This document shows positions 14,057-16,315 of a stretch of 64,000 nt of DNA, one piece after another (the first letter of the stretch is position 1; each line of letters begins with the position of its first letter). The stretch is taken from NCBI GenBank assembly GCA_017795005.1, contig CP051242.1:124001-188000 (forward strand), in the 5' to 3' direction. The DNA is from Balneolaceae bacterium (GTDB taxonomy: Bacteria; Bacteroidota; Rhodothermia; Balneolales; Balneolaceae). The notes under the pieces are model-generated. The model was not told where the DNA came from. It searched no databases and saw only the letters and a list, made by a program, of their open reading frames with translations. Position numbers and translations under genes: made by a program.

Positions 14057-15874
14057 ATGTCAGATACCTACCGCGCTCTTACCCGAAAATACCGCCCGAA
14101 TAGTTTTGAGGATATCGTTTCTCAGGATCATGTTAGCAGCACGCTGCTTAACGCGATCAAACAGAACAGGCTTTCTCATGCCTACATGTTTTGTGGCCCG
14201 CGTGGAGTGGGTAAAACAACTATGGCGCGTGTACTTGCCAGAGTAATCAATAACATTGATGCGGACGTTGATGGTGAAGCACTCAATCAAACCATGAGCA
14301 TCACTGAAATGGATGCTGCTTCTAATAATAAAGTGGAAGACGTTCATCATCTCAGAGAAATTGTCCGAATACCGCCCCAGAACAGCCTCTATAAAGTAAT
14401 TATTGTAGATGAGGTTCACATGTTGTCCAAAGCGGCTTTTAATGCTTTATTGAAAACGCTTGAAGAACCGCCTGAACACGTCATTTTTATTTTTGCTACT
14501 ACTGAGCCTCATAAAGTTCTTCCAACGATTTTATCACGGGTTCAGCGCTTCGACTTCAAACGTATCGCTGTTGATGAAATCGTGAATCGTCTTAGAAAAA
14601 TCTCTGTTGACGAACAAATCGCTATTGATGAGGAGTCGTTACATGTAATTGCTAAAAAAGCGGATGGCGCATTACGTGATGCACTGGGGTTAATGGATCA
14701 GGCTATTGCTTTTTGTGGTGATACCATCACACATAATGAATTGCTGCAAGCGTTGAATGTTGTTGGAACTGATCGCTTATTCGAATTCATGACTTGTGTA
14801 AAAGCGCATGATGCCGATAAAGGACTGGAGCTCATCAATACCTTACTCCAAGAAGGATATGATATTCAGGAATACCTGATCGGCCTTACCGAACACTTGA
14901 GAAATTTATACATAGCTCATCACTCCGATAAAATGTATCTGGTGGAAGCCTCTGAAGAAACCAAAGCAAAGTATAAAAGCACTGCTACCGATTTTTCCAG
15001 AGATGATCTGATGCGAATGCTTCATATTGTTAGTGAAGCTCAAATTAAACTTAAGGATGCACATCAGCCCAGAATTCAGTTTGAAATCACCCTTCTGAAA
15101 CTCATTCATATGGAGCGATCTGAAAACCTCTCTAAACTTCTTGGTGAGCTGGAAGACTTAAAAAAAAACTTTAGGAACTTAGGGGTAGGGGAAGGAACAA
15201 AGGCACTAAGGGATGAGGAAGGCACAGAGGGTAGTTCTGATTCAGAAATAGAAGAAAATGCTCGTGTTGAGGATGTGTCTGATGAGGCTGGTAGTTCAGA
15301 AACTAATGCAGTTGTTAATACAGAACCTGTTGAAGAAGTTGTTCCGGAACCTGCTCCAGTTCATGATGAATACGATTTAGGACAACCAGCATTAGTAACA
15401 GAAGTCACTCAAAAAGCTAAGGTGCTTCACTTTTCAAATGGGAATGGAAATGGTTCCCCTAAACCTGCTCCTATTCAGGCAGAAGTCAGAGAAGACGCAC
15501 CTGTCCGGAAACTTTTAGTGGAGGATGTGCGGGCTATATGGGATGAGTTTATTACTTCTCTCAATAACAAAGTACCAAAAGTACTGGAGCTTCAGGTGCA
15601 GCGTGTTCAGCCGATAAAGCTTAAAGGAGCAGAACTTACTCTGGAATGTGATAACGCCTTTGCACAAAAAATGCTGGATGAGCAAGGACATGAATTGTCT
15701 CTTCACTTGAAGGAACATATTGGAGTTATGTTACGTTTTAAAACTGAAGTTAACAGACAAGAAGGGAATGTCTCTAAAGCAAAGAATCCCTACGAACGAT
15801 TTAAAGAGATTCAGCAAAAAGATCCTATTATCCGCGAACTGGTGGATAAATTCGGAGCTGAACTGGAATACTAA
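14057..15874 (+). CDS. dnaX: DNA polymerase III subunits gamma/tau
   Basis: Clamp-loader ATPase of 605 residues. AAA+ core: Walker A GPRGVGKTT (47-55), Walker B VDEVHML, sensor ATTEPHKV, SRVQRFDFKR and domain III to about residue 355. The four zinc-binding cysteines normally following Walker A are absent. At codons 368-371 (15160-15168) lies a run of nine A; the -1 frame meets TAG at 15172 and the +1 frame TAG at 15180, so a short gamma-like product could arise by slippage. An acidic, Pro-rich linker (about 375-480) precedes the tau C-terminal domain. First gene of dnaX-ybaB-recR. Confidence 0.95.
   Translation: MSDTYRALTRKYRPNSFEDIVSQDHVSSTLLNAIKQNRLSHAYMFCGPRGVGKTTMARVLARVINNIDADVDGEALNQTMSITEMDAASNNKVEDVHHLREIVRIPPQNSLYKVIIVDEVHMLSKAAFNALLKTLEEPPEHVIFIFATTEPHKVLPTILSRVQRFDFKRIAVDEIVNRLRKISVDEQIAIDEESLHVIAKKADGALRDALGLMDQAIAFCGDTITHNELLQALNVVGTDRLFEFMTCVKAHDADKGLELINTLLQEGYDIQEYLIGLTEHLRNLYIAHHSDKMYLVEASEETKAKYKSTATDFSRDDLMRMLHIVSEAQIKLKDAHQPRIQFEITLLKLIHMERSENLSKLLGELEDLKKNFRNLGVGEGTKALRDEEGTEGSSDSEIEENARVEDVSDEAGSSETNAVVNTEPVEEVVPEPAPVHDEYDLGQPALVTEVTQKAKVLHFSNGNGNGSPKPAPIQAEVREDAPVRKLLVEDVRAIWDEFITSLNNKVPKVLELQVQRVQPIKLKGAELTLECDNAFAQKMLDEQGHELSLHLKEHIGVMLRFKTEVNRQEGNVSKAKNPYERFKEIQQKDPIIRELVDKFGAELEY
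15143..15182 (+). promoter_or_regulatory. candidate programmed slippage site in dnaX (A9 with flanking stops)
   Basis: A9 at 15160-15168 in frame TTA-AAA-AAA-AAC. A GGTGAG (15143-15148) ends 11 bases upstream and could act as an internal anti-SD contact. The stops are TAG 15172-15174 in the -1 frame and TAG 15180-15182 in the +1 frame. The position, right after the AAA+ core, matches where other bacteria make gamma by frameshifting or transcript slippage. Confidence 0.6.
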
Positions 15875-15886
15875 CCTATTTTAATT

Positions 15887-16234
15887 ATGGCAGATTTTAA
15901 TATGGCCGATATGTTCGGCAAAATTCAGGAAATGCAATCTAAAGTGCAGGAAACTCAGGCTAACCTTGGAAAGGTGGAAGTGGAAGCTGAAGCCGGTGGA
16001 GGCATGGTAAAAGTAAAAGCGAACGGACTTCGCCAAATCCTTTCTGTTACTCTTGATAAAGATGTGATTGATCCAGATGATAAAGAAATACTTGAAGATC
16101 TTGTTGTAGCCGGAGTCAATAAAGCACTCGAAAAAGCTGACGAGGAAGCCAAAGCGAAAATGCAGGAAGCTTACAAAGGCATGATGCCCGGCGGCGGAAT
16201 CCCCGGTATGGACCTCTCTAAATTTGGACTCTAA
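15887..16234 (+). CDS. ybaB: YbaB/EbfC nucleoid-associated protein
   Basis: 115 residues, the usual length. An N-terminal helix (MFGKIQEMQSKVQETQANLGKVEVEAEAGG) is followed by the central strands GMVKVKANGLRQILSVTLD and a C-terminal helix (EDLVVAGVNKALEKADEEAKAKMQE) ending in a Gly/Met-rich tail. The protein binds DNA as a tweezer-like dimer. It lies 12 bases after dnaX and 81 before recR, the conserved bacterial dnaX-ybaB-recR order, which supports the call. Confidence 0.93.
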   Translation: MADFNMADMFGKIQEMQSKVQETQANLGKVEVEAEAGGGMVKVKANGLRQILSVTLDKDVIDPDDKEILEDLVVAGVNKALEKADEEAKAKMQEAYKGMMPGGGIPGMDLSKFGL

Positions 16235-16249
16235 GAAATTCAAAATGAA

Positions 16250-16289
16250 AAATTAAAGATTCAAAATGGGCTCGCCCAATCTTTAATTT
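16250..16289. repeat. intergenic cruciform repeat between ybaB and recR
   Basis: Perfect 12-base arms AAATTAAAGATT (16250-16261) and AATCTTTAATTT (16278-16289). Inside is a second palindrome, TGGGCTCGCCCA (16267-16278). Similar A/T-rich motifs (TTCAAAA, AATCTTTAA) surround it. It looks like a dispersed intergenic palindrome rather than a terminator, since recR needs read-through in this operon. Confidence 0.6.
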
Positions 16290-16315
16290 TGAATCTTTAA
16301 TCTTTAATTCCTTAA

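Follow-up and report, generated by a model that had tools for sequence, protein, structure and literature searches.

The dnaX gene of Thermus thermophilus is a case of experimentally proven transcriptional slippage (Larsen et al. 2000, as described in PMC1088944 and PMC5009743). Its sense strand carries nine consecutive A residues (A9), τ is encoded in a single zero-frame open reading frame (ORF), stops lie nearby in both other frames, and γ arises from transcripts with an altered number of A's. The E. coli gene also yields γ and τ, using A AAA AAG, a Shine-Dalgarno (SD)-like element and a stem-loop (PMC5009743). Two-ORF dnaX genes, most of them with poly-A, were described by Antonov et al. 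(2013; PMC3711429) for 17 genes in 12 genera, including Chloroherpeton and Chlorobium; the runs (A7–A10) lie at the γ/τ border, transcriptional realignment was predicted, and a shift in both directions served as the criterion for it. In PMC1088944, the avoidance of A9 and T9 in genes is the criterion for a slippage-prone host. Even for E. coli, the function of γ is a long-standing matter of dispute (PMC5009743).

The window (the whole stretch of Balneolaceae DNA that was analyzed, 64 kb) contains a dnaX gene with the following features:

14057–15874, + strand: dnaX, whose zero frame encodes τ (605 codons, calculated 68.3 kDa), from the ORF and its Pfam and NCBIfam matches
14123–14566, + strand: AAA+ ATPase core, residues 23–170, common to γ and τ (Pfam PF13177)
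14738–15136, + strand: domain III, residues 228–360, the last domain common to γ and τ (Pfam PF12169, DNA_pol3_gamma3)
15143–15148, + strand: GGTGAG, 11 bases upstream of the A9, earlier proposed as an internal SD sequence and unsupported here
15158–15169, + strand: slippery codons TTA AAA AAA AAC (368–371), shared as NTA/GCA AAA AAA AAN by 80 of the 88 Balneolaceae dnaX genes compared
15160–15168, + strand: A9 run, the proposed slippage site; the window has no second A9 on either strand (mean of 9.6 in shuffles), and runs of nine or more A's are otherwise avoided in genes
15170–15871, + strand: τ-only part, a variable linker followed by a conserved C-terminal domain (ca. residues 485–605)
15172–15174, + strand: TAG, the −1-frame stop (an A10 transcript would give a 372-residue γ ending in KKKL)
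15180–15182, + strand: TAG, the +1-frame stop (an A8 or A11 transcript would give a γ of 374–375 residues ending in TLGT)

The protein was identified as the dnaX equivalog by its match to TIGR02397 in NCBIfam (E = 2.8e-114; 382 bits against a cut-off of 250) and by Pfam matches to PF13177, PF22608 and PF12169. By DnaX, the closest named genome is that of a Balneolaceae bacterium (83% identity). The genes downstream are ybaB/ebfC and then recR; an imperfect inverted repeat (aaagattcaaaatgggc ... gcccaatctttaattttgaatcttt, window 16234–16300) lies between the two. The τ-only C-terminal domain gave separate conserved matches, and the same tail was found in the −1 frame of the genus designated g20 (see below). 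The A9, which the sequence-only reading had placed correctly along with the stops of the two alternative frames, starts eight codons past the end of domain III, i.e. at the γ/τ border. The predicted short products comprise 372 (A10), 374 (A8) and 375 (A11) residues and have masses of about 42.4–42.6 kDa. Because domain III ends at residue 360, a product that terminates at residues 372–375 would be a complete clamp-loader subunit without the τ tail.

The likeness to Thermus that had been drawn for this gene holds in detail: the A9 is on the sense strand, τ is in frame, and stops close both other frames. The same design is proposed for Balneolaceae, which differ in belonging to another phylum and in having the run at 61% of the gene, directly after domain III. 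The locus shares with the E. coli system the gene itself, the γ-plus-τ outcome and a near −1 stop; unlike that system, it has no conserved SD-like element or stem-loop, its +1 frame is closed too, and its A-run is longer. The two-ORF form of Antonov et al. recurs in g20 and in many of the sampled genomes of the phylum. It differs from the form in the window, where τ is in frame and γ requires the slip. This τ-in-frame form is invisible to searches for broken genes. In a limited collection of literature, no report was found of a τ-in-frame dnaX in Balneolaceae, of its spread in the phylum or of switching between forms; Balneolaceae and frameshifting occurred together only in an unrelated algal genome paper, and dnaX, Bacteroidetes and slippage only in PMC3711429. 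The case is less isolated than the sequence-only reading supposed, since two-ORF dnaX genes are known in other bacteria (PMC3711429). This kind of switch is already known; the Balneolaceae case is new and, as judged from comparative sequence data, strongly supported.

The A9 very probably serves for programmed slippage, whereby realignment of RNA polymerase fixes the proportions of γ and τ made from dnaX. The polymerase would realign on the run and thereby produce transcripts with A counts other than nine. Those with nine A's, or nine plus a multiple of three, would be translated to τ; all others would meet the −1 or +1 stop within a few codons, giving a γ of 372–375 residues that consists of clamp-loader subunit domains I–III minus the C-terminal region of τ. 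That the slip occurs in transcription, how efficient it would be and that cells contain both proteins are matters of inference.

Conservation was assessed in 88 Balneolaceae dnaX genes from 21 genera, with full-length protein identities down to about 50%. A run of nine or ten A's was present at codon 368 in 80 of the 88 genes and in 19 of the 21 genera (counts that ignore kinship); thus, a run of A9 or longer at the γ/τ border is conserved in the DNA of the family, as expected of a Thermus-type gene. The run was A9 in 69 genes and A10 in 11, and in every case its first A was the last base of codon 368. That base was A in 86 of the 88 genes (18.8 expected from codon usage). It was kept across Leu, Val, Ile and Ala (TTA 60, CTA 7, GTA 15, ATA 2, GCA 2), and codon 368 showed the strongest synonymous constraint of the 383 sites tested (z = 17.5). 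A constraint that is synonymous and spans several amino acids cannot stem from the protein. Codons 369 and 370 were AAA, never AAG, in all 80 run carriers, with Lys-Lys conserved. On this comparative evidence, the A-run is not a product of chance and is maintained by selection. The eight genes lacking it at codon 368 comprised seven of genus g19 (L041, L108–L110, L112, L118 and L122) and one of genus g9 (L128). Several of these non-carriers have an A8–A10 between codons 394 and 446 with −1 stops nearby, as if the site had moved.

The alternative frames were examined in the 78 run carriers in which τ is in frame, using a null of synonymous codons (200 rounds). A −1 stop within two codons was present in 66 of the 78 (null mean 28.4, maximum 37), and 73 had a +1 stop within eight codons (the null averaged 32.4 and never exceeded 42). 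Among 38 relatives without a run at the same place, only three had the −1 stop and six the +1 stop; run and stops evidently appear and vanish together. Closure of both frames is required by bidirectional slippage and is unneeded for −1 ribosomal frameshifting. The earlier proposal of a γ/τ switch in this gene is supported by the conservation of the run and by the stop enrichment in both frames, and the check suggested with it, i.e. whether the run and both stops recur in relatives, came out in its favor.

Genus g20 offers a natural experiment, available from two species (L130 and L131), both known from metagenome or TPA assemblies. Their dnaX genes read GCA AAA AAA AAA GAT TAA, so that the zero frame stops after 372 residues. 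A complete τ tail lies in the −1 frame and ends in FKEIQQ...ELVKRFGAELKQ, much like the tail encoded in the window. An assembly error is unlikely because both species carry the A10. Between the two species, the tail had a dN of 0.13 and a dS of 0.84 (dN/dS of ca. 0.15), indicating purifying selection. The τ tail of g20 thus appears to be translated and selected, though it is reachable only through a shift. The N-terminal part had a much lower dS (0.18) than the tail.

The use of homopolymeric runs by the host was studied in a genome sample of 864 kb with 591 genes (715 kb); the null was generated by permuting synonymous codons within each gene in 100 rounds. Runs of at least nine A's were observed twice, once in dnaX, against 35.6 expected (lowest null round 25), and the depletion was present in all three phases. 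Runs of at least nine T's were observed once against 13.9 expected. The threshold was sharp: A7 occurred 237 times (221 expected), A8 43 times (76 expected), and A9 or longer twice (36 expected). The in-phase heptamer A AAA AAA was not avoided in the sampled genes (100 observed, 84 expected). This host therefore shows the avoidance of A9 and T9 in genes that PMC1088944 associates with slippage-prone organisms, and runs of eight to nine nucleotides or more, of A and T alike, look slippage-prone in any phase. The only other sampled gene with an A9 is L371:13504–14428 (307 codons, A9 at codon 213), where the run is possibly a second slippage site or a sign of recent decay. The sole T9 within a sampled gene is at codon 394 of L300:227–3707 (1159 codons).

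The slip could in principle take place during transcription or on the ribosome; the former is, to our reading of the sequences, the probable case. RNA-polymerase slippage is favored because both frames are closed and two-ORF genes occur in both shift directions, because avoidance extends equally to runs of A and of T, in any phase, from eight to nine nucleotides while the heptamer is spared, and because neither upstream pairing with the anti-SD sequence nor downstream folding exceeds the null. A switch made by ribosomes that slip along the A-run unaided by stimulators, then terminating at a stop in either alternative frame, is rather unlikely. Such sliding would also use the stops of both frames and would need neither an SD sequence nor a stem-loop, and E. 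coli ribosomes do slide on consecutive AAA codons in vitro, with premature out-of-frame termination and some product already from three such codons (PMC4363877), so that ribosomes may account for part of the slip. Robust truncation in that study, however, was seen at A11, whereas most Balneolaceae dnaX genes carry A9; moreover, the avoidance of T runs along with A runs, from eight to nine nucleotides in every phase, fits RNA polymerase better than a sliding ribosome.

A −1 programmed ribosomal frameshift of the E. coli type, stimulated by GGTGAG as an internal SD sequence and by a downstream stem-loop, had some appeal, given the location of that hexamer 11 nt upstream of the run and the very close −1 stop. 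It is now highly improbable. Across 80 orthologues, the internal SD sequence put forward by the sequence-only reading was neither conserved nor enriched over the synonymous null (anti-SD pairing of −4.17 kcal/mol against −4.09 in the null), and downstream folding showed no excess either (−10.0 against −10.3); an E. coli-like signal composed of a stimulatory SD and a stem-loop is absent from these genes. The RNA downstream of the run in the window is unremarkable (z = −0.85), and nothing beyond a chance resemblance to a mammalian lncRNA, below threshold, came out of an Rfam scan of 15000–15400. The host genome makes weak use of SD sequences (14% of genes against 6.6% when shuffled), and the ribosomes of Bacteroidia do not recognize them (PMC9976891), a property that may also hold for Balneolaceae. 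A frameshift of this type would also leave the enrichment of +1 stops unexplained. Even less credible is that the run is incidental, by chance or because DnaX needs a basic KK(K/N) stretch. Lys-Lys is indeed conserved at residues 369–370, but the third-base A of codon 368 (86 of 88 genes, four amino acids), the lack of AAG at codons 369–370 in the 80 carriers, the stops enriched in both frames and the avoidance of A9 in other genes all stand against it; the synonymous constraint refutes a run that is incidental at the protein level.

Outside Balneolaceae, the run was patchy among the other families of Balneolales: family f3 has an A9 at codon 369, and some members of f2 have A8–A10 at codons 368–408. 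It was absent from most of family f5 and from most other families of the order, and it was found in none of 20 sampled Rhodothermia outside Balneolales, mostly of high G+C content. This distribution implies that production of γ by an A-run is not universal even within the class. When Balneolales genes without a run at codon 368 were scanned for X XXY YYZ heptamers, none was found in most of them.

In the rest of the phylum, an A9–A11 at the end of domain III was common: it was present in 45 of 49 genes in a sample biased by choice and in 17 of 30 genes when the sampling was spread across families. The gene takes two forms there, a one-ORF form whose other two frames are closed by nearby stops and a two-ORF form with γ in frame. 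The latter was found at 24 loci besides the two of g20, with the τ tail in the −1 frame and, twice, in the +1 frame; the two cases opposite to the usual direction are L198 (a Chitinophagales MAG) and L318. In a FastTree phylogeny of 220 dnaX N-terminal parts, the presence of the run changed at least 20 times, and among run carriers the one- and two-ORF forms changed at least nine times. It is conceivable, if somewhat doubtful, that poly-A slippage is the main route to γ across much of Bacteroidota, having replaced SD-dependent ribosomal frameshifting in a phylum whose ribosomes make no use of SD sequences, with repeated switching between τ-in-frame and γ-in-frame genes. Strong selection, together with interconversion of the forms despite retention of the run, suggests that the cells of this group need both forms of DnaX. 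Cultures of Balneola, Gracilimonas or Flavobacterium thereby offer a way to test whether γ is needed, and a lineage without SD recognition can be compared cleanly with the SD-stimulated frameshift that does the same job in E. coli. As a caution, dnaX will seem broken or short in many genomes of the phylum, though τ is probably made. Genome G098 has two divergent full-length dnaX genes (L216 and L222) on two contigs, perhaps as a result of contamination (4% reported).
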